Virus record (IMG/VR): IMGVR_UViG_3300032224_000970
Location: 95,684-159,683 of that record
Length of the DNA stretch: 64,000 nt
Reading direction: 5' to 3' (one strand)
From: a virus
Shown: positions 43,561 to 51,399 of the stretch, piece after piece
Layout: every line of letters starts with the position of its first letter
How positions within the stretch are numbered: position 1 is the first letter of the stretch
Translations under genes and position numbers: made by a program
Notes under the pieces: generated by a model
Database searches by the model: none
Told to the model about the DNA's origin: nothing
What the model saw: only the letters and a program-made list of their open reading frames with translations

Positions 43561-43634
43561 TGGGGATTTGTGTAGTGGTAGCACAGCAGACTTTGACTCT
43601 GTTAGTACAAGTTCGATTCTTGTATCCCCTGCCA
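43561..43634 (+). tRNA. tRNA-Gln (TTG)
   Basis: Cloverleaf with anticodon loop CTTTGAC; encoded CCA. The first base pair would be T1-T72, a mismatch at the place where Gln tRNAs usually have a weak T-A pair. First tRNA of the cluster. Confidence 0.88.
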
Positions 43635-43679
43635 AACAAATGCGCATTTGCGTAGAGGTAGTGCTCATCTGTTTGGTAT
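43635..43679 (+). pseudogene. tRNA 5'-half fragment
   Basis: GCGTAGAGGTAGTGC looks like a complete D arm and is followed by the beginning of an anticodon arm, but no T arm or CCA follows before the next tRNA. Probably a decayed tRNA. Confidence 0.4.
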
Positions 43680-43755
43680 GGTGTCTATAGTGTAGTGGTC
43701 TGCACTCCATGCTGTGAACGTGGAAGTATGAGTTCGATCCTCATTAGACACCCCA
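43680..43755 (+). tRNA. tRNA-His (GTG)
   Basis: Anticodon loop CTGTGAA on a CCATG/CGTGG stem. The additional 5' G (position -1, at 43680) facing C73 that histidyl-tRNA synthetase needs is encoded. CCA encoded. Confidence 0.92.
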
Positions 43756-43757
43756 AT

Positions 43758-43833
43758 GCTGCTTTAGCTGATGTGGTCATAGCACTGGTCTGAAGAACCA
43801 AGGAACGTGGTTCGATCCCACGAGGCAGCACCA
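43758..43833 (+). tRNA. tRNA-Phe (GAA)
   Basis: Anticodon loop CTGAAGA; acceptor GCTGCTT / AGGCAGC with one G-T pair; CCA encoded. The anticodon stem has one mismatch at its base. Confidence 0.88.
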
Positions 43834-43840
43834 AGAATTT

Positions 43841-43914
43841 CCTTTCGTAGCTCAAAGGTAGAGCACTCGGCTGATAACCGAGAGACATAGGATCGTTACC
43901 TGTCGAAAGGACCA
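43841..43914 (+). tRNA. tRNA-Ile (GAT)
   Basis: Anticodon loop CTGATAA on a perfect CTCGG/CCGAG stem; CCA encoded. The T loop is ATCGTTA instead of the usual TTCGAAT type: positions 54 and 58 are A and T rather than T and A. Confidence 0.88.
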
Positions 43915-43919
43915 AGTTT

Positions 43920-43994
43920 ACCCGATTGGTGAAATGAATATCACACAGTGCTACGAACGCTGGGTTGGGAGTTTGATTCTCTCATTGGGTGCCA
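43920..43994 (+). tRNA. tRNA-Arg (ACG)
   Basis: Anticodon loop CTACGAA, the usual substrate for A34-to-inosine editing by TadA; acceptor ACCCGAT / ATTGGGT; CCA encoded. Confidence 0.9.
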
Positions 43995-44000
43995 AGTTAA

Positions 44001-44090
44001 GGAAGTGTGGCAGAGTCTGGTTTATTGCACCTGTCTTGAAAACAGACGATCCGAAAGGATCCGTGAGTTCGAATCTCACCGCTTCCGCCA
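44001..44090 (+). tRNA. tRNA-Ser (TGA)
   Basis: Class II tRNA with a long variable arm (GATCC-GAAA-GGATC) and anticodon loop CTTGAAA; CCA encoded. Confidence 0.92.
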
Positions 44091-44113
44091 ATTTTTTATG
44101 AAAGGAGTTGTAT

Positions 44114-44695
44114 ATGCCAAGTGTATTCTTAGTAAGCGATACGCACTTCGGGCACGCTGGTGTATGCAGATTCACTCGTGACGATGGTGAGAAGTTAAGA
44201 CCATGGACTGATCCAGATGAAATGGATGAGGAAATGGTAAAGCGATGGAACGAAACTGTGAAGCCAACTGATAAAGTTTATCATCTTGGTGACGTAGTGA
44301 TCAATCGTAAAGCATTGAAGATTATGCATCGTTTGAATGGTGACAAAGTTTTGATTCGTGGTAACCATGATATCTTTAAGGATGATGACTACCGTGAACA
44401 CTTTCGTGAGTTACGTGCATATCATGTGATGAATGGAATGATCTTAAGCCACATACCGATTCATACAGAATCGTTAGGTAGGTTCGGTGTGAACATTCAT
44501 GGTCACTTACACAGTAATCGTGTAATGTTACCTGGATTTGGTGGCAAGATTACTGACATTGTTGATGCACGATACCACTGTGTCTGTGTCGAACAAACAG
44601 ACTTTCGTCCTATCTTATTTGAAGATGTGATCAAACGCATCAAAGAAGAAGGTGGTGAGGTAGGTTTTAAGAATGGTAATGGACCAACGATGTAA
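44114..44695 (+). CDS. Calcineurin-like metallophosphoesterase
   Basis: 193 residues from the ATG at 44114 (AAAGGAG upstream). Metal motifs SDTHFGH, LGDVV, GNHD, a SHIPIH histidine and HGHLH are all present. This compact form is a common phage phosphoesterase; substrate unknown. It is inserted between two tRNA-Ser genes. Two other calcineurin-like genes (33.2 and 57.2 kb) are only distantly similar. Confidence 0.85.
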   Translation: MPSVFLVSDTHFGHAGVCRFTRDDGEKLRPWTDPDEMDEEMVKRWNETVKPTDKVYHLGDVVINRKALKIMHRLNGDKVLIRGNHDIFKDDDYREHFRELRAYHVMNGMILSHIPIHTESLGRFGVNIHGHLHSNRVMLPGFGGKITDIVDARYHCVCVEQTDFRPILFEDVIKRIKEEGGEVGFKNGNGPTM

Positions 44696-44700
44696 GGATT

Positions 44701-44792
44701 GGAAGGTTGGATGAGTGGCTGAAATCAGCAGTTTGCTAAACTGTCGTTCATAGAAATATGAACCATGGGTTCGAATCCCATACCTTCCTCCA
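44701..44792 (+). tRNA. tRNA-Ser (GCT)
   Basis: Class II with a long variable arm (GTTCATAGAAATATGAAC) and anticodon loop TTGCTAA; CCA encoded. Confidence 0.92.
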
Positions 44793-44796
44793 AGAT

Positions 44797-44874
44797 GCCC
44801 TTGTACGCAAATTGGAAAAGTGGCTCTCCTCAAAAGGGAGTATTCTGTCGGTTCGAGTCCGACCAAGGGTACCA
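44797..44874 (+). tRNA. tRNA-Leu (CAA)
   Basis: Anticodon loop CTCAAAA on a CTCTC/GGGAG stem, acceptor GCCCTTG / CAAGGGT (G-T first pair); CCA encoded. Variable arm is short for a Leu tRNA. Confidence 0.88.
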
Positions 44875-44882
44875 AAGAATTT

Positions 44883-44959
44883 GCGGATGTGATGGAATTG
44901 GTATACATATCGGACTTAAAATCCGAGTTCTGTGGGTTCGAGTCCCACCTTCCGCACCA
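44883..44959 (+). tRNA. tRNA-Leu (TAA)
   Basis: Anticodon loop CTTAAAA on a perfect TCGGA/TCCGA stem; CCA encoded. A related but truncated copy lies at 45161. Confidence 0.9.
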
Positions 44960-44966
44960 AGTTTAT

Positions 44967-45041
44967 ACGGCTATCGTTCAATGGATAGGACAGCATTCTT
45001 CTAAAGTGCGAATGAGGGTTCGATTCCTTCTAGCCGTGCCA
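44967..45041 (+). tRNA. tRNA-Arg (TCT)
   Basis: Anticodon loop CTTCTAA, acceptor ACGGCTA / TAGCCGT fully paired; CCA encoded. Reads AGA/AGG, codons frequent in AT-rich phage genes. Confidence 0.92.
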
Positions 45042-45047
45042 ATGTTA

Positions 45048-45122
45048 GGGCTGGTAGCTTAATGGTAAAGCAGTCGACTCATAATCGATTGAGTGGGAGT
45101 TCAATTCTCTCTCAGCCCACCA
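45048..45122 (+). tRNA. tRNA with CAT anticodon (Met or Ile2), copy 1
   Basis: Anticodon loop CTCATAA; fully paired acceptor starting G1-C72, so not an initiator. Either elongator Met or Ile (with lysidine at C34). CCA encoded. Confidence 0.88.
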
Positions 45123-45151
45123 TTGACTTGTAAGATTGTTTGAGGTATAAT
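45123..45151 (+). promoter_or_regulatory. Promoter TTGACT-17-TATAAT in the tRNA cluster
   Basis: TTGACT (45123-45128) directly after a tRNA CCA, TATAAT (45146-45151), spacer 17. It drives the truncated tRNA-Leu and the oxygenase gene at 45230. Confidence 0.8.
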
Positions 45152-45160
45152 AGAGTAAAT

Positions 45161-45225
45161 GCGAGTGTGGTGGAATGGTATACACATCAGACTTAAAATC
45201 TGACGCTTAATTGATTGAGGGTGGA
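45161..45225 (+). pseudogene. Truncated tRNA-Leu (TAA), T arm missing
   Basis: D arm and anticodon arm (loop CTTAAAA, stem TCAGA/TCTGA) closely resemble the tRNA-Leu at 44883, but the sequence runs into the ribosome site and ATG of the oxygenase gene instead of a T arm and CCA. It would be the 5' leader of that mRNA. Confidence 0.7.
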
Positions 45226-45229
45226 TGAT

Positions 45230-45790
45230 ATGAAAGAGTTAAAAGATTTTATATTGATTTATGATAAAGTTTTGCCAGAAGATGTTTGTAAAGCATCGGT
45301 GGAAGATCTAGAAAATAGAAGTTGGGAGCAGCATTTGTTTTATGAAAGTAAGACAAATACGTATGCAGAAACTATTGATGACTGCGATATCTATTCAGAA
45401 CAAATTGTTACTGGACAGATTATTGCTCAAGCAACAGGTGCTGTGCTACATGATTATGTTAAGAAATTAAATTCTAATTACTTTAACGAGTTGCAGAAAT
45501 TTAGTAACATTACATATCATAGGTACAGAGATGGAAAGCAGATGGTTGAACACTGCGACCATATCCATGCCTTATTCAAAGGTAGTGCAGATAAAGGCAT
45601 ACCAATACTATCTGTTGTTGGTGTGTTGAATGATGGGTATGTTGGTGGAGAATTTGTAATGTTCGATGACTATGAGATTAAACTCGGTGCTGGAGACATT
45701 ATAGTATTTCCTTCTGTGTTCTTGTTTCCACATCGAATTAATAGAGTTACTGAAGGGACAAGATATTCTTTTGTTTCTTGGGCATGGTAA
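45230..45790 (+). CDS. 2OG-Fe(II) oxygenase, prolyl 4-hydroxylase type
   Basis: 186 residues from the ATG at 45230. The P4Hc core is complete: H108-x-D110 (EHCDH), distal H168 (FPHRIN) and Arg178 in EGTRYSFVSW. ITYHRYRDG and GGEFVMFDDYEI are typical of the family. It hydroxylates a protein or small molecule of unknown identity with Fe(II) and 2-oxoglutarate. It lies inside the tRNA cluster, directly behind a truncated tRNA-Leu, as if inserted there. Confidence 0.88.
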   Translation: MKELKDFILIYDKVLPEDVCKASVEDLENRSWEQHLFYESKTNTYAETIDDCDIYSEQIVTGQIIAQATGAVLHDYVKKLNSNYFNELQKFSNITYHRYRDGKQMVEHCDHIHALFKGSADKGIPILSVVGVLNDGYVGGEFVMFDDYEIKLGAGDIIVFPSVFLFPHRINRVTEGTRYSFVSWAW

Positions 45791-45791
45791 T

Positions 45792-45865
45792 GTGAGTGGA
45801 GCCAGTTGGACGGGCACTGGATTGCAAACCCATGGAAGTAGGTTCGATTCCTATCACTCACTCCA
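45792..45865 (+). tRNA. tRNA-Cys (GCA)
   Basis: Anticodon loop TTGCAAA, discriminator T (as Cys tRNAs need), acceptor GTGAGTG / CACTCAC, CCA encoded. The anticodon stem has two mismatches, so function is a little less certain. Confidence 0.8.
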
Positions 45866-45893
45866 GAAAACGAAAGGTTTACATTATGAATAA

Positions 45894-45910
45894 CCCTACA
45901 GAGCGTAGGG
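45894..45910 (+). terminator. Hairpin CCCTAC / GTAGGG of a promoter cassette
   Basis: 6-bp stem with loop AGAGC, the same stem core as at 8169 and 38906; no T run. It precedes the next promoter by 16 bases. Confidence 0.5.
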
Positions 45911-45926
45911 GATTGAAAGAAAGTGC

Positions 45927-45955
45927 TTTACTTTAATTCAGCCTTCAGGCATAAT
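45927..45955 (+). promoter_or_regulatory. Promoter TTTACT-17-CATAAT of the repeated family
   Basis: TTTACT (45927-45932), CATAAT (45950-45955), spacer 17, extended context AGTGCTTTACTTTAATTCAG. Confidence 0.75.
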
Positions 45956-45985
45956 TATACTATGTTGATTATGAAAGGAACTGAA

Positions 45986-46228
45986 ATGACTGAATTTGAA
46001 AAGAACTGCTACGGTATGAGCCAAGACGACATTCGTGAAGAATATATGAATTCTCTGACTGCTCGCCTGAGTGGTTTGGAAATGGTTGCGATGGGTGTGT
46101 TGTCTGATGCGCAAGAGTTGATGTCTTTTGGCAATGCTCAAGCGATGGATCAGTCCCGTAAAAACATCAACATCGCTAAGTTCATTCTTAGCGAAATGAT
46201 GGAAGCAAGAATGAAAGAAGTAGCGTAA
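45986..46228 (+). CDS. Small helical hypothetical protein
   Basis: 80 residues from the ATG at 45986 (AAGGAA upstream); in-frame ATGs at 45962 and 45971 are closer to the transcription start. Helical with EEYMNSLTARLSGLEMVAMG; mixed charge. No family recognised. It is the only protein gene between two promoters. Confidence 0.68.
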   Translation: MTEFEKNCYGMSQDDIREEYMNSLTARLSGLEMVAMGVLSDAQELMSFGNAQAMDQSRKNINIAKFILSEMMEARMKEVA

Positions 46229-46236
46229 TAAATTAC

Positions 46237-46265
46237 TTTACTTTTATCAAGTGATGCGGTATAAT
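46237..46265 (+). promoter_or_regulatory. Promoter TTTACT-17-TATAAT for the tRNA/ncRNA operon
   Basis: TTTACT (46237-46242), TATAAT (46260-46265), spacer 17. A boxA-like element and tRNA-Glu follow. Confidence 0.8.
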
Positions 46266-46282
46266 AGCTGTATTGCTTGATC

Positions 46283-46297
46283 GCTCTTTAAAAATTT
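46283..46297 (+). promoter_or_regulatory. boxA-like Nus antitermination element
   Basis: GCTCTTTAAAAATTT differs by one base from the E. coli rRNA boxA core GCTCTTTAACAATTT. It lies between the promoter and tRNA-Glu, where rRNA operons carry it. NusB/NusE binding would let polymerase read through the structured RNA region. Confidence 0.65.
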
Positions 46298-46312
46298 GTT
46301 GGTATTAAATTT

Positions 46313-46388
46313 GCTCGGTTCGTCTATCGGCTAGGACACTGCCCTTTCACGGCAGGAAGGAGGGGTTCGATTCCCCCACCGAGTACCA
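46313..46388 (+). tRNA. tRNA-Glu (TTC)
   Basis: Anticodon loop CTTTCAC on a perfect CTGCC/GGCAG stem; acceptor GCTCGGT / ACCGAGT; CCA encoded. Confidence 0.93.
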
Positions 46389-46403
46389 GATTTAATTGTA
46401 TTG

Positions 46404-46470
46404 GGTTACCAAGCCAGTAGGTAACTTAGGAGAGAATAATCAGTAGCCGTACTGACTCTCGCTAAGTTAC
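46404..46470 (+). ncRNA. Switch-like hairpin pair
   Basis: GTAACTTAG-GAGAG...CTCTC-G-CTAAGTTAC with an inner TCAGTA/TACTGA forms a 20-bp hairpin (46421-46470). An upstream GTTACC (46405-46410) can pair instead with GGTAAC (46420-46425), so the two folds exclude each other. No ORF fits here. Confidence 0.5.
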
Positions 46471-46608
46471 AAGAAACCTTGAGATAGTATCAGGAGGACG
46501 CTGGAACAACTTGGCACGTAATGTGATTGATGACCAGTCGTAGGACGACTACGTGGTTAACCATCGGATGGTGGTTGTCAGCAATCATCCCAGTATAATT
46601 AAATGTGG

Positions 46609-46757
46609 TATTAGTTTAGTGTTATCAAGGTATCGTTATAGGACGCTATGACTACTCGACAGTTAGGGTGCGACTGAAACTGTCTGATATAACTGCCACT
46701 CGCTTGTCAGTGCTAGCTACATTGTTGACAAATAGGCACGATAACACTAAACTAATA
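46609..46757 (+). ncRNA. Structured RNA closed by an 18-bp helix
   Basis: Bases 46609-46626 pair perfectly with 46740-46757. Inside are GTTATA/TATAAC (46635/46688), GACAGTT/AACTGTC (46658/46678) and TTGTCA/TGACAA (46704/46726), a multi-helix junction. The segment lies between tRNA-Glu and tRNA-Tyr in a 373-base stretch without a gene. I recognise no known RNA family. Confidence 0.6.
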
Positions 46758-46761
46758 TTAT

Positions 46762-46854
46762 GGAGGTATTGTAGATATGGCGTGTTCTGCAGCGGACTGT
46801 AAATCCGTTCCCTCGTGGTAAACATTGTTGGTTCGACTCCAACTACCTCCACCA
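46762..46854 (+). tRNA. tRNA-Tyr (GTA)
   Basis: Anticodon loop CTGTAAA on GCGGA/TCCGT, long variable arm typical of bacterial Tyr tRNAs; CCA encoded. It starts 4 bases after the closing helix of the structured RNA. Confidence 0.92.
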
Positions 46855-46980
46855 TATTCGGCAACTTCGGTTGCTGCCGATCCAGCTAAAGGTGCTGGCG
46901 TGTCATTCGGTGTATCACCTAGATATACTTTCGGTATCCACGAAGAGATACGGCTAAAGTTCGTAATGCCAACGATTTTT
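46855..46980 (+). ncRNA. Hairpin-rich spacer RNA
   Basis: 126 bases without an ORF between two tRNAs. CAAC-TTCG-GTTG has a UUCG tetraloop; CCAGC/GCTGG (46882/46894) and ATAC/GTAT hairpins follow. It would be released as a separate RNA by tRNA processing. Confidence 0.35.
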
Positions 46981-47055
46981 GGTTTGTAAGTGTTCATGGA
47001 CGCACGTATGCCTGTCACGCATAAAGAAGGGGATCGTTACCCCTACAGACCGCCA
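46981..47055 (+). tRNA. tRNA-Asp (GTC)
   Basis: Anticodon loop CTGTCAC on TATGC/GCATA; acceptor GGTTTGT / ACAGACC; CCA encoded. T loop is ATCGTTA, as in tRNA-Ile here. Confidence 0.88.
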
Positions 47056-47080
47056 AGTTATTGTTGTGAAGGAAAAGAAA

Positions 47081-47434
47081 ATGAATATAAATGATATGGT
47101 TGGTAAAGTGTTCACTTCGGTGACACAAGATGGTTATGAGATGGTGTTTAAGAATGAAACTGAAACATTCAAATTCTATCACTATCAAGATTGTTGTGAG
47201 TCTGTTACTATCGATGACATCGTTGGTGACTTGTCTGACTTAGAAGATGCACCACTGTTGATTGCTGAAGAAGTTTCTGGTGAAGCACCTGTGTTGGATG
47301 ATGAATATCATGAGTGCGTTGAGTGGACATTCTACAAATTCGCAACTCGTAAAGGTTATGTTGATGTGCGTTGGTTTGGTGAGTCTAATGGCTACTACTC
47401 AACTAGCGTTGATTTGGAATATGAATTAGTATAG
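47081..47434 (+). CDS. DUF7448-like conserved phage protein
   Basis: 117 residues from the ATG at 47081 (GAAGGAAAAG upstream). The VGKVF-x(n)-ETETFKFYHYQDCCESV core and WTFYKFATRKGYVDVRWFG strand match a small beta-rich family common in phages. Function unknown. It stands alone among tRNA genes, so it is probably expressed with them. Confidence 0.75.
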   Translation: MNINDMVGKVFTSVTQDGYEMVFKNETETFKFYHYQDCCESVTIDDIVGDLSDLEDAPLLIAEEVSGEAPVLDDEYHECVEWTFYKFATRKGYVDVRWFGESNGYYSTSVDLEYELV

Positions 47435-47439
47435 TATAT

Positions 47440-47514
47440 TGCGGGAAGGTCAAGTTGACCCGAATGGTCTCATAAGCCATATCGAGGGTGGAGCGTTACC
47501 ACCTCCCGCTACCA
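47440..47514 (+). tRNA. tRNA with CAT anticodon, copy 2 (initiator-like)
   Basis: Anticodon loop CTCATAA on ATGGT/GCCAT. Positions 1 and 72 are T and T, an unpaired end as in bacterial initiator tRNAs. T loop is AGCGTTA. It may be fMet, but the third GC pair of the initiator anticodon stem is T-G. Confidence 0.8.
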
Positions 47515-47757
47515 AACCTGCAGCTAATCACTGCTAGTGTGATCCGCACGAGAGAAACTGATTGACGATCAGTAGGATGGTTCTCCCTTTGAATAGGGCA
47601 TGAGTAAAATCATGGGTCTACCTAACCAGCGTTGGCAACACGAGAGTTCTGTCTGTGGCGAGTGGGTGGAGGGAGTGCGTGATGAAAGATTAATTGGAGT
47701 AAAACCTGACCAAATTTCTGATGCTCTATAATTACCACGACAGACAGGAAGCATTTA
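47515..47757 (+). ncRNA. Structured RNA between two tRNAs
   Basis: 243 bases with no convincing ORF. Helices: GAGAA/TTCTC (47552/47581) enclosing ACTGAT/ATCAGT (47557/47568), CCCT/AGGG, CATGA/TCATG (47599/47610), and a long-range CTGTCTGT/ACAGACAG (47649/47740). No known family recognised. Confidence 0.5.
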
Positions 47758-47834
47758 GCCCAGATGACGGAATTGGTATACGTGTTGGTCTTAGAAGCCA
47801 AATTTTGAGAGTTCGAGTCTCTCTCTGGGCACCA
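47758..47834 (+). tRNA. tRNA-Leu (TAG)
   Basis: Anticodon loop CTTAGAA on TTGGT/GCCAA; acceptor GCCCAGA / TCTGGGC; CCA encoded. Confidence 0.92.
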
Positions 47835-47839
47835 ATTAT

Positions 47840-47914
47840 GGATCGTTAACTCAGTGGTAGAGTGTCTCTTTTACACGGAGAAGGTCGGGAGTTCGAATCT
47901 CTCACGATCCACCA
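47840..47914 (+). tRNA. tRNA-Val (TAC)
   Basis: Anticodon loop TTTACAC on TCTCT/GGAGA; acceptor GGATCGT / ACGATCC; CCA encoded. Confidence 0.92.
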
Positions 47915-47965
47915 TTTTTATTAGGAGATAGTTATGAAGCGAAAATCTAAAACCCGAAAGAGTAT

Positions 47966-48041
47966 GGGGGTATGGTGAAATGGTTATCACAGCAGACTTT
48001 TAATCTGCCAGTTTAGGGTTCGAGTCCCTGTGCCCCTACCA
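47966..48041 (+). tRNA. tRNA-Lys (TTT)
   Basis: Anticodon loop CTTTTAA on GCAGA/TCTGC; acceptor GGGGGTA / TGCCCCT; CCA encoded. Confidence 0.92.
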
Positions 48042-48119
48042 TATAAAAACACATTTCAGCAGGATAGCCTGTGGTGGATAGTTTCTGTTTAGTACAGTAT
48101 TCGAAGTGTGTTTCTATAT
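48042..48119 (+). ncRNA. tRNA-sized structured RNA
   Basis: Ends ATATAAAAACACA (from 48041) and TGTGTTTCTATAT (48107-48119) pair over 13 positions with one mismatch. Inside are CAGG-ATAG-CCTG and CTGT-TTAGT-ACAG hairpins. It fills the space between tRNA-Lys and a CAT tRNA exactly, but is not a tRNA itself. Confidence 0.5.
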
Positions 48120-48194
48120 GGTAACATAGCACAATGGCAGTGCACATCCTTCATACGGATAAGGTTATTGGTTCAAGTCCAATTGTTACCACCA
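48120..48194 (+). tRNA. tRNA with CAT anticodon, copy 3 (Met or Ile2)
   Basis: Anticodon loop TTCATAC on CATCC/GGATA-type stem; acceptor GGTAACA / TGTTACC fully paired; CCA encoded. Confidence 0.88.
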
Positions 48195-48204
48195 AAGGAA
48201 TTTT

Positions 48205-48440
48205 ATGTTAGAATATGTAGTTACATTTATTGCCATATTCATGCTTGATGTTGTTTATACATATTATCTAAGATGTGTGGCTAACAATCATGTTCTCGGT
48301 GCCAGTTGCTGGTCGATTGCATGTTACCTTCTTGGAAGTGTTGCTGTAATCAATTATACAAGTAATCACTGGTTGTTACTACCTGCAGTTGCTGGTGCAT
48401 TTTGTGGCACCTATGTAGGTATGATATTGAAAAGAAATAA

Positions 48441-48450
<10 letters not shown>
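48205..48450 (+). CDS. Small three-span membrane protein
   Basis: 81 residues, AAAGGAATTTT before the ATG. Hydrophobic helices VVTFIAIFMLDVVYTYYL, ACYLLGSVAVINY and WLLLPAVAGAFCGTYVGMI. Conserved in style with small membrane proteins of other large phages. Its last ten bases are also the first ten of tRNA-Pro. Confidence 0.75.
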
Positions 48451-48517
<67 letters not shown>

Positions 48518-48524
48518 AGTTTTT

Positions 48525-48598
48525 GCCCTATTAGTTAAATGGTAGAACATCGGTTTTGTAATCCGAGGAAGGCAGTTCGATTCTGTCATGGGGCACCA
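48525..48598 (+). tRNA. tRNA-Thr (TGT)
   Basis: Anticodon loop TTTGTAA; acceptor GCCCTAT / ATGGGGC; CCA encoded. One mismatch next to the anticodon loop. Confidence 0.88.
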
Positions 48599-48606
48599 AG
48601 TTTTAT

Positions 48607-48681
48607 TCCACAGTAGCACAGCGGTAGTGCAGTTGACTGTTAATCAATTGGTCGGAGGTTCGATCCCTTCCTGTGGAGCCA
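48607..48681 (+). tRNA. tRNA-Asn (GTT)
   Basis: Anticodon loop CTGTTAA on GTTGA/TCAAT; acceptor TCCACAG / CTGTGGA; CCA encoded. Confidence 0.93.
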
Positions 48682-48683
48682 GT

Positions 48684-48759
48684 TTTGTGGTAAGGAAAGT
48701 AAAAGGAGAATGGGCAAGTCGTTGGCTAGACAATGACTAGATACCTCACCTGCCACAAA
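48684..48759 (+). ncRNA. tRNA-sized structured RNA
   Basis: 76 bases closed by TTTGTGG / CCACAAA (48684/48753), with an AGTCGTTG / CAATGACT hairpin (one G-T pair) near the 3' side. No CCA, no T arm. It lies between tRNA-Asn and tRNA-Ala. Confidence 0.45.
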
Positions 48760-48767
48760 TTTTATTT

Positions 48768-48841
48768 GGGGGATTAGTTAAATGGGATAACCATGGCTTT
48801 GCAAGCCATTATTGAGAGTTCGATTCTCTCATCCTCCACCA
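48768..48841 (+). tRNA. tRNA-Ala (TGC)
   Basis: Anticodon loop TTTGCAA on ATGGC/GCCAT; acceptor GGGGGAT / ATCCTCC. The G3-T70 pair is the alanine identity element. CCA encoded. Confidence 0.93.
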
Positions 48842-48857
48842 ATTATGAAAGATAGCA

Positions 48858-49307
48858 ATGATACACGTAATCAAAGAACTGACTGAAGCGATATACAGCA
48901 TACTAACTGAAGATCCAGTTAGACCACATATCCCACAGCTGGATCGTGTTGGTGAACACAAAGATGTTTTCGTATATCGTAATCAAGATCAATCAGTTGC
49001 AGCAATCACATGTGTCAGCTATCAGAATTTTGTTCCAGTAAGCGAACGTGAGTTGTTTCAAGATTGCGAGAAACCAACCATCGCAGTGTTCTATACAATA
49101 TGGAGTTATGCTCCAGGAGCAGGTCGTTCACTGATATTTGATGCGGTTAAATATATCAAGGAAACGAATCCGAACATTGAACGATTCGTTACTCTATCTC
49201 CAAAGACAGAGACAGCGAAAAGGTTTCACATACGTAATGGTGCTATCATCTTTAGAGAGAATGAAGAAACAACTAACTATGAATATGTTAATGCAGTATT
49301 GCTCTAG
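48858..49307 (+). CDS. GNAT-like acetyltransferase family protein
   Basis: 149 residues. AAITCVSYQNF, the FYTIWSYAPGAGRSLI strand-turn-helix (acetyl-CoA-loop-like), ERFVTLSPKTETAKRFH and a final ETTNYEYV strand form the pattern of a phage GNAT-like family. Acceptor unknown. The stop codon lies inside the following tRNA gene. Confidence 0.65.
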   Translation: MIHVIKELTEAIYSILTEDPVRPHIPQLDRVGEHKDVFVYRNQDQSVAAITCVSYQNFVPVSERELFQDCEKPTIAVFYTIWSYAPGAGRSLIFDAVKYIKETNPNIERFVTLSPKTETAKRFHIRNGAIIFRENEETTNYEYVNAVLL

Positions 49308-49376
49308 TAGCTCAGTTGGTAGAGCAACTGATTAGTAATCAGTAGGTCTGCGGTTCGAATCCGTACTAGAGCACCA
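49301..49376 (+). tRNA. tRNA-Thr with AGT anticodon
   Basis: Perfect cloverleaf: acceptor GCTCTAG / CTAGAGC, anticodon stem ACTGA/TCAGT with loop TTAGTAA, T loop TTCGAAT; CCA encoded. A34 outside Arg-ACG is rare in bacteria. The first 7 bases overlap the upstream coding sequence. Confidence 0.9.
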
Positions 49377-49405
49377 TTTTAAAAATAAAATTGGGGAGAT
49401 GAAAG

Positions 49406-49684
49406 ATGAGTGATGGTGGAAAAGGTAGTGCGCCAAGACCATTAGCAGTTTCTTATGATGAGTATACAGCTAAATGGAATGCAATATTCAGGAACGAGGG
49501 TGTTAGTAAGTCACAGGCAAAACGATTAGCAGTGCAACGTGAAGATAACACTGGCACTGATAAGAATGAATACTACGATGTTCTTTCTACAGAAGACTGT
49601 ATAGATCCTGTTACACGTGATGATTCAGCTGCTGAAGATGAAGCATTCAAGTATGTGGAGGAACATCAGAAATATAAAGTATAA
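49406..49684 (+). CDS. Conserved small phage protein (MSDGGKGSAPRP start)
   Basis: 92 residues; GGGGAG upstream of the ATG. The start MSDGGKGSAPRPLAVSYDEY and the following WNAIF motif mark a family of short phage proteins. Hydrophilic with an acidic C-terminus. No function known. Confidence 0.72.
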   Translation: MSDGGKGSAPRPLAVSYDEYTAKWNAIFRNEGVSKSQAKRLAVQREDNTGTDKNEYYDVLSTEDCIDPVTRDDSAAEDEAFKYVEEHQKYKV

Positions 49685-49685
49685 T

Positions 49686-49759
49686 ATCTCGATAGTGTAA
49701 TGGCAGCATACCAGTCTCCAAAACTGTTGGTCGGGGTTCGAGTCCCTGTCGGGATGCCA
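49686..49759 (+). tRNA. tRNA-Trp (CCA)
   Basis: Anticodon loop CTCCAAA on CAGT/ACTG; acceptor ATCTCGA / TCGGGAT with one T-G pair, discriminator G; CCA encoded. Confidence 0.92.
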
Positions 49760-49849
49760 GAAAAAGTCCTTGAGGATAGATCAAGGCAGATTAATCACCT
49801 CCGAGTTCGGAGTAGTTTGATTAGCAGCAGGTGGAAGCCCTGCACCATT
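49760..49849 (+). ncRNA. Hairpin-rich RNA between tRNA-Trp and tRNA-Gly
   Basis: Stems CCTTGA/TCAAGG (49768/49781), TAATCA/TGATTA (49792/49818) enclosing CTCCG/CGGAG, and GCAGG/CCTGC (49827/49839). Ends in a chance-like CACCA. 90 bases, no ORF. Confidence 0.45.
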
Positions 49850-49923
49850 GCGGGTAAGCACAAGGTGTGTCGCCAGCCTTCCAAGCTGTGCAGAGTGGAG
49901 TTCGACTCTCCCTATCCGCTCCA
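49850..49923 (+). tRNA. tRNA-Gly (TCC)
   Basis: Anticodon loop CTTCCAA on CAGC/GCTG; acceptor GCGGGTA / TATCCGC; discriminator T; CCA encoded. Confidence 0.9.
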
Positions 49924-49944
49924 TAAAATATAAGAGGTGTAGTC

Positions 49945-50427
49945 ATGAAAAAAATTAATATTGATGAAGTGAAAACTTACATTGAAGTACAGAGTCCCGA
50001 AACAAAAATCTACATTGGTGGTGACTCCGAACGATTTAATATTGGTAATGACTGGTATGCGGACTACACACTTGCGATTGTTGTTCATATCAATGGTAAC
50101 AATGGATGTAAAATTTTTGGTGAAACCATTCGTGAACGTGACTGGGATCAGAAGAAAGACAAGCCACGTATGCGTCTGATGAACGAAGTATACAAGATCG
50201 CAGAGTTATACCTAAAGTTGCAAGACGTATTGGAAGATAGAGAGGTAGAAGTTCACCTAGATATCAATCCAAACGAAATGCATGGTTCAAGTTGCGTTAT
50301 CAATGAAGCAGTCGGTTACATTCGTGGTATGTGTAATGTTATCCCACTGGTTAAACCAAATGCATTTGCAGCAAGTTATGCAGCAGATAGATTGAAGTGG
50401 GTTATGCAAGAAAGAAAAGTTGCTTGA
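49945..50427 (+). CDS. RNase H-like nuclease family protein (DUF458 type)
   Basis: 160 residues. IYIGGDSERFN gives the first acidic residue of an RNase H-like fold, VEVHLDINPNEMHGSS another, and PNAFAASYAADRLK a C-terminal helix, in the style of the DUF458 family. Likely acts on nucleic acid; unproven. Preceded by AAGAGGTG and followed by a strong promoter. Confidence 0.68.
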   Translation: MKKINIDEVKTYIEVQSPETKIYIGGDSERFNIGNDWYADYTLAIVVHINGNNGCKIFGETIRERDWDQKKDKPRMRLMNEVYKIAELYLKLQDVLEDREVEVHLDINPNEMHGSSCVINEAVGYIRGMCNVIPLVKPNAFAASYAADRLKWVMQERKVA

Positions 50428-50452
50428 CATGCAATAATGTTTAGCGTATAAT
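50424..50452 (+). promoter_or_regulatory. Promoter TTGACA-17-TATAAT
   Basis: Consensus TTGACA (50424-50429) overlaps the stop of the previous gene; TATAAT (50447-50452); spacer 17. Serves the 50480 gene and probably the RNA region behind it. Confidence 0.85.
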
Positions 50453-50479
50453 TATGTTTATTGAAATGAAGGAATGACT

Positions 50480-51067
50480 ATGGAAACTATTAATTTGAGA
50501 AAAGCAAATGCAATCCAAAGCGAGATCCGTAAAGCGATCTCTAGTTCTGATGTTAGCGATACTGCTACCATCACTGAGTACAGCAAAGACATTGCTGGTA
50601 GTCTTGAGAAAGCAATGGCAGATTATGCCACTGATGTTACTCGCAAGGTAGCATTAAACACTGCGTTGTTTAACATTCGTAAGAGTGTTGCTCAAGCAAA
50701 CGCCACTAATGGTATTAGCGATATCCTTGCTGATGTTGAATTGGTCGATGCCAAGATCACAGTTTACAGCAATGTTGCCACTAAGCAAGTTGCTAAGACT
50801 CTGACTGAAATCTCTAATCGTATCGAGAAGATTAAAGCTGTGCCACCTGATGCTTCTCGTGCTGCAGCAATCTATGGTGATCGTTACAACACAGTGGAAA
50901 CATCTGTTGTTGAACAAGGTACTATCGATGGTGCCAAACAAATTGTCAAGCAATTGAAGCGTGAGAAGCAAGCACTTCAAGACAAACTGTTGACACTGAA
51001 TGTTAACACTACAATCAACATTGATAGTGTTGATGAGATGGTTTTGAAGATCGAAGGTATTTTGTAA
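50480..51067 (+). CDS. Helical conserved phage protein
   Basis: 195 residues from the ATG at 50480 (AAGG at good distance; the ATG at 50474 is too close to it). Helical throughout: ANAIQSEIRKAI, ISDILADVELVDAKITVYSN and QLKREKQALQDKLLTLNV. A family of T4-like aquatic phages with no known function. It has its own consensus promoter, so it is likely early. Confidence 0.75.
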   Translation: METINLRKANAIQSEIRKAISSSDVSDTATITEYSKDIAGSLEKAMADYATDVTRKVALNTALFNIRKSVAQANATNGISDILADVELVDAKITVYSNVATKQVAKTLTEISNRIEKIKAVPPDASRAAAIYGDRYNTVETSVVEQGTIDGAKQIVKQLKREKQALQDKLLTLNVNTTINIDSVDEMVLKIEGIL

Positions 51068-51071
51068 GTTT

Positions 51072-51320
51072 TGAGGAACAGTGCGATAAGAGAGCAGAAT
51101 GGGTAGTTGCAAAAATCTAATACTTCTAAAGTATTGGCTTGGTCTTGAAAACCAAATCCGAACAATTGTCCGACTCTGTTGTTGCTCCACGATATATACT
51201 AGACTGTTATAGTCGTTGCTTGTTGCTTCGTGGTTTATAACTTTTGTGGACTGTCCATTGCATATTGCTAATTGCATATTGCTATGCGACTATTCGCTTG
51301 AATTGAAACACTGTTCCTCA
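51072..51320 (+). ncRNA. 249-nt RNA closed by a 12-bp helix, with a tRNA-like part
   Basis: TGAGGAACAGTG (51072-51083) pairs exactly with CACTGTTCCTCA (51309-51320). Inside is a tRNA-Ser(TGA)-like piece (51092-51189): GAGCA...TGCTC ends and a TTGGT-CTTGAAA-ACCAA anticodon arm, but poor D and T arms. A 14-base unit ATTGCATATTGCTA is repeated in tandem at 51257-51284. No ORF. Confidence 0.55.
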
Positions 51321-51323
51321 TCT

Positions 51324-51399
51324 GCGGGAGTAATTCAGTTGGTAGAATGCCTGCTTGCCAAGCAGAATGTCGTCGGTTCGAGTCCGATCTCCCGCTCCA
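51324..51399 (+). tRNA. tRNA-Gly (GCC)
   Basis: Anticodon loop TTGCCAA on CCTGC/GCAGA-type stem; acceptor GCGGGAG / CTCCCGC; discriminator T; CCA encoded. Last tRNA of the cluster. Confidence 0.93.

Follow-up and report, generated by a model that had tools for sequence, protein, structure and literature searches.

Phage T4 encodes two small stable RNAs, species 1 and 2, from the rnaC and rnaD genes, which are 139 and 119 nucleotides (nt) in length, respectively; RNAC has been probed by Northern blotting, and both RNAC and RNAD are classed as late (PMC9697503, PMC3014915). GOLLD and ROOL are structured RNAs of phages and prophages whose function is unknown, and they often lie near transfer RNA (tRNA) islands (PMC12286853). 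Formation of the 30S subunit in E. coli depends critically on a leader-trailer helix longer than 17 base pairs (bp) in the precursor of 16S ribosomal RNA (rRNA), and the boxA sequence of the pre-rRNA recruits antitermination factors (PMC10250234). Phage tRNA islands are commonly read for their tRNAs alone. Here I describe RNA2, an element nested in the tRNA island of an uncultured virus. The DNA analyzed is a 64,000-nt stretch (hereafter the window; coordinates count from its first nucleotide) covering positions 95,684 to 159,683 of the 159,683-bp IMG/VR record IMGVR_UViG_3300032224_000970. The best explanation of RNA2 is a gene for a small non-coding RNA that aquatic T4-like phages make as part of a tRNA precursor.

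RNA2 shares with T4 rnaC and rnaD its small size, its unexplained function, and its setting among the clustered tRNA genes of a T4-like phage. The folds differ; T4 rnaC has a tRNA-like T arm and rnaD folds weakly, while neither has a closing helix of 20 bp as RNA2 does. Homology with the two T4 genes was rejected, since a cmsearch run with filters off gave at best 8.6 bits in the T4 cluster, away from both. GOLLD and ROOL share the neighbourhood of RNA2 but not its size and fold (many GOLLD members exceed 800 nt), and their Rfam models match neither the window nor RNA2. Among all models of Rfam 15, those of tRNA alone match the window, none of them at RNA2, and relaxed Rfam searches with three divergent members gave nothing above the gathering threshold over RNA2. 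The first-pass annotation, made from the letters of the window, had found that no known phage RNA class came to mind. This holds against Rfam 15 and T4 rnaC/rnaD, and the covariance-model search against Rfam that it proposed matched no known family. No description of an RNA2-like family turned up in the literature library that was searched. RNA2 is a real, undescribed RNA gene, and it offers a far better-resolved comparative case for the old T4 rnaC/rnaD puzzle.

RNA2 occupies positions 46605-46761 when the extended closing helix is included, and all of its parts lie on the plus strand. The helix P1 had been reported as a perfect 18-bp duplex; 46609-46626 indeed pairs with 46740-46757 without a mismatch, and no other perfect inverted repeat of this length with arms up to 400 nt apart exists in the window. 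When G-U pairs are counted, P1 grows to 22-23 bp (46604/46605-46626 with 46740-46761/46762) and reaches the first base of tRNA-Tyr. Its 5′ arm is thus placed at 46605-46626, and its 3′ arm, from the fold and the analysis of P1 lengths, at 46740-46761, ending at the 5′ end of tRNA-Tyr. P1 encloses the P2 hairpin with a GACG loop (46635-46652; 46635-46641 with 46646-46652), the P3 hairpin (46658-46684; 46658-46663 with 46679-46684), and the P4/P5 arm (46694-46738), composed of P4 (46694-46697 with 46735-46738) and P5 (46704-46709 with 46726-46731). The first-pass annotation overlooked a pseudoknot, in which the GCGA strand in the P3 loop (46670-46673) pairs with the UCGC strand in the P4/P5 arm (46700-46703). 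The region 46600-46770 folds with −53.2 kcal/mol, compared with −37.9 ± 3.9 kcal/mol for shuffled sequences (z −3.9), and none of 200 dinucleotide shuffles folds as well.

Is this fold conserved? IMG/VR was scanned with 16 bases of P1 and with a flanking protein, and the 29 distinct homologs obtained were used to build a covariance model, R1. On loci fetched by a motif from the interior of the RNA, outside P1 and P2, R1 gave 64 matches with E-values of at most 3e-18. The pooled family comprises 92 covariance-model matches representing 71 distinct sequences of 144-151 nt with 51-99% identity; some contigs are listed under two locus ids, and identical RNA2 rows were counted once. The E-values are rough due to a short model calibration, while the bit scores of 65-176 (173.4 for the RNA2 in the window) leave no doubt. 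Because the search patterns were taken from relatives of the window, these counts are no estimate of the true spread of the family. A scan of bacterial genomes with an 18-base 5′ pattern gave seven loci, and a scan with a P2-region pattern gave just two, with no model match in either case.

Standard pairs are found in 97.6% of the RNA2 cells of the alignment versus 79.0% after shuffling, and 33 of the 44 pairs show two-sided compensatory changes. By helix, such changes affect 14 of the 17 modelled pairs of P1 in the 71 sequences, six of seven in P2, five of six in P3 (where 99.8% of cells are paired), three of four in P4, and three of six in P5. The covariation score is 0.484, against 0.157 for shuffled and at most 0.064 for slid controls. 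Parsimony on a tree counts about 151 canonical-to-canonical two-sided steps versus 2-8 with the partner slid, although the tree comes from the same columns and recombination could inflate the count. The sequence of P1 is free to vary provided that pairing holds; the helix is retained with a largely different sequence in L127, L140, and L183, and an uninterrupted P1 of 17-24 bp is present in 72 of 75 contexts. The architecture of the family is therefore a closing helix of 17-24 bp around three arms, with a pseudoknot that also covaries. Since G-U pairs are abundant, the folded strand is the plus strand, which is that of the tRNAs. The palindromic P1 accounts for the matches of the model to the minus strand (20-33 bits). 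Single-base insertions and deletions within the family argue against a coding role. Fold, conservation, and strand are directly supported by these comparisons, and it is virtually certain that RNA2 is a real conserved structured RNA. The earlier judgement that the closing helix and inner stems could not be chance as a set is borne out by the 71 distinct relatives and massive compensatory change; covariation and folding energy both support the inner stems.

Inverted-repeat ends of about 20 bp and the differing locations in different phages might recall a DNA element bounded by inverted repeats at both ends, such as a miniature inverted-repeat transposable element, whose RNA fold is incidental. 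Such an element would have sequence-conserved ends and several copies per genome. Instead, the ends vary freely yet stay paired, covariation is seen in the inner stems, G-U pairs are common, the element always lies on the tRNA strand, and carrier records searched whole hold a single plus-strand copy each. The covariation strongly disfavours this explanation, and I regard it as barely credible.

The unpaired core of RNA2 contains the near-invariant bases GGU-AUCGU, ACUA, CUGAUAUAAC, UCGCU, and AAAU. The pairing of the pseudoknot is kept in all 71 sequences, as GCGA:UCGC in 70 and as GCUG:CAGC in the remaining one (L110/L112). Because this replacement is one independent event, the support for the pseudoknot is good but not massive. 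The fold has been held over about 50% sequence divergence; therefore, RNA2 must do something for these phages. With invariant junction bases in a pseudoknotted core and a location between RNAs that need separation, RNA2 could be imagined as catalytic, for instance by cleaving itself out from between tRNAs. However, no ribozyme or intron family of Rfam matches it, and the invariant bases lie inside the closed helix, distant in sequence from the boundaries that need cuts. Catalysis is thus very unlikely.

The placement of RNA2 in tRNA islands was directly observed. All tRNAs in the carrier loci share its strand. The gene upstream is mostly tRNA-Glu, while tRNA-Gly, tRNA-Asp, tRNA-Trp, and tRNA-Cys are also found there. 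The CCA of the upstream tRNA overlaps the start of P1 in 41 of the 92 matches, and P1 often pairs the ACCA of that tRNA with UGGU. In most matches, the downstream tRNA begins 5-8 nt past the modelled end of RNA2, so that the clean ends noted beside tRNA-Tyr in the window reflect a family rule. Two copies lie off the tRNA array. The L139 copy is flanked by a protein gene on either side, with the 25 tRNAs of that genome about 64 kb away, and its P1, though new in sequence, still spans 23 bp. The L171 copy is at least 1.5 kb from any tRNA, behind a promoter (TTGAAA-17-TATAAT) with 11 of 12 matches. These copies argue for a role of RNA2 on its own.

The pairing of ACCA with UGGU in P1, together with the same plan in other inter-tRNA spacers (see below), would also be expected if RNA2 worked only in cis, as a structured spacer of the tRNA precursor that pairs with the CCA of the upstream tRNA and so steers its 3′ maturation, or insulates the neighbouring tRNAs. 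On the other hand, the copies of L139 and L171 are remote from tRNAs, the conservation of the core far exceeds the needs of a spacer, and carrier records have one RNA2 despite their many tRNA spacers. A purely cis-acting spacer is unlikely, if a more serious candidate than catalysis. Could RNA2 instead be a riboswitch or leader that regulates an adjoining gene? In L139, a protein gene lies close behind P1 on its 3′ side. A tRNA, however, comes next in almost every other member, and P1 is long and near-perfect, with no alternative fold seen. Such regulation is more doubtful still than self-cleavage.

In the window, tRNA-Glu (TTC; 46313-46388, ARAGORN and Rfam RF00005), a second structured RNA termed RNA1 (46389-46604), RNA2, and tRNA-Tyr (GTA; 46762-46854, ARAGORN and an Rfam E-value of 3.8e-05) are contiguous on the plus strand, with zero spacer between them. 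A sigma-70-like promoter, TTTACT-17-TATAAT (46237-46265, plus strand; 10 of 12 matches), precedes this unit. Taken as a whole, the promoter scan showed no excess over chance in this region (18 promoters versus 21.6 expected), while promoters with 10-12 matches are present in 27 of 64 distinct unit leaders versus 56 of 375 other tRNA leaders. An rRNA-type boxA core, CTCTTTAAAA, is directly seen on the plus strand at 46284-46293, 19 nt before tRNA-Glu, as one of three matches on both strands of the 64 kb. RNA2-unit leaders contain a boxA core in 18 of 58 cases, where about 0.1-0.2 would be expected, as do 22 of 40 distinct tRNA-Gln leaders, usually at the head of an island, where the expectation is well under one. 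Phage tRNA islands may thus use rRNA-type antitermination. By eye, a hairpin directly ahead of boxA was seen in several leaders (e.g., GATTGAGAAATCAATC and GGCTAAGAAATTAGCC), as in rRNA operons; it is not obvious in the leader of the window.

This layout resembles that of pre-rRNA, in which a long helix also brackets a structured RNA and tRNAs are co-transcribed behind a boxA (PMC10250234). Likening P1 to the leader-trailer helix is my own analogy. Unlike in pre-rRNA, P1 encloses about 113 nt of unrelated, non-rRNA sequence, and the leader boxA, present in the window, occurs in only part of the RNA2 family. I infer that RNA2 is transcribed, cut out, and accumulated as a stable RNA that acts in trans; a processed, small, stable, trans-acting RNA is the probable, though far from assured, identity of RNA2. 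The host-type promoter and the boxA leader would drive the tRNA-Glu-RNA1-RNA2-tRNA-Tyr unit, and the precursor would be transcribed under rRNA-like antitermination. P1, of about 20 bp, may act like the leader-trailer helix by joining the two ends of RNA2, protecting it against exonucleases, and supplying a double-stranded cleavage site; its length of 17-24 bp would be compatible with cleavage by RNase III. The cut of RNase P at the 5′ end of tRNA-Tyr would create the 3′ end of RNA2. The released RNA would be a stable product of about 150 nt, as the first-pass annotation had proposed. In its pseudoknotted core, the invariant unpaired bases may contact a trans partner, most likely a component of the host RNA or translation machinery.

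Several points weigh against a processed, trans-acting RNA2. Most leaders of RNA2 units lack a boxA, and the close packing against tRNAs seen in most members would also fit a function in cis during tRNA processing. Two relatives, G001 (180 kb) and G002 (a 125-kb contig), have no RNA2, and its absence from G001 shows that it is dispensable. No carrier was found among cultured phages: a BLASTN search of 50,697 phage records, queried with the window region and with a composite of divergent members, gave no match, and neither did the whole genomes of T4 and four related phages, DLP6, C48C1, Cr30, and S-CBWM1. The present work yields a covariance model that is ready for use and exact predictions of the RNA2 ends, both of which can be applied to metatranscriptomes.

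RNA1, also overlooked in the first-pass annotation, fills the rest of the gap between tRNA-Glu and tRNA-Tyr, starting directly after the CCA of tRNA-Glu (46388). Its fold has a z of −6.4, and homologs were found in many loci. In its alignment, 37 consensus pairs are paired in 98.5% of cells, with two-sided changes in 18 pairs. RNA1 and RNA2 relocate independently; L087 and L104 have RNA1 after tRNA-Gln and RNA2 after tRNA-Gly. An uninterrupted helix of at least 14 bp closes 54 of the 492 distinct inter-tRNA spacers whose length was usable, versus 2.0 when the ends are mismatched. These 54 fall into 17 sequence clusters, with 26 members for RNA2 and eight for RNA1, and many of them start exactly at the CCA. 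At least one singleton among them looks protein-coding (L086, 1987-2252). It is conceivable, if somewhat short of an even chance, that the tRNA islands of aquatic T4-like phages also house a guild of small structured RNAs, made up of many unrelated families with one biogenesis plan. Under this plan, an rRNA-type boxA would stand in the leader, a leader-trailer helix would start at the upstream CCA, and the RNAs would be packed seamlessly between tRNAs; RNA2 and RNA1 would be the two commonest members of the guild here.

Other spacers have similar features. Between tRNA-Lys and tRNA-Met, 48037-48123 has a closing helix that includes the CCA (21 nt, 90% complementary, with 45 nt inside) and the lowest fold z of the window scan, −6.25; homologs are found in L076, L013, L015, and L011. 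An apparent further module family in tRNA islands has the motif ACTGCCCAGTACCG, or one close to it, and a long closing helix (L188:3673-3862, L172:911-1090, L125:12079-12259, L196:13482-13660, and L137:3499-3673). The spacer from tRNA-Glu to tRNA-Lys at L022:4270-4396 has a 21-bp closing helix from the CCA and belongs to a cluster of five.

Judged by its proteins, the phage belongs with T4-like phages; a UvsX-like recombinase and a DnaB-like helicase mark this kinship, and its SNF2-like protein has 48% identity to the counterpart of Stenotrophomonas phage DLP6. The window has 26 tRNA genes within 43561-51399. The tRNA-Asp at 46981-47055 is called by ARAGORN only, is absent among the Rfam tRNA matches, and looks degenerate. 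Also inside the island, 47081-47434 encodes a small protein of PHROG 2650, of unknown function, with relatives in many unrelated phages (of Bacillus, Salmonella, and Pseudomonas). Two RNA2-carrying phage contigs have permuted transfer-messenger RNA genes (L172:6281-6569 and L183:8155-8451, the latter on the minus strand; 115-124 bits with RF04321, also matching beta_tmRNA), which hint at betaproteobacterial hosts.
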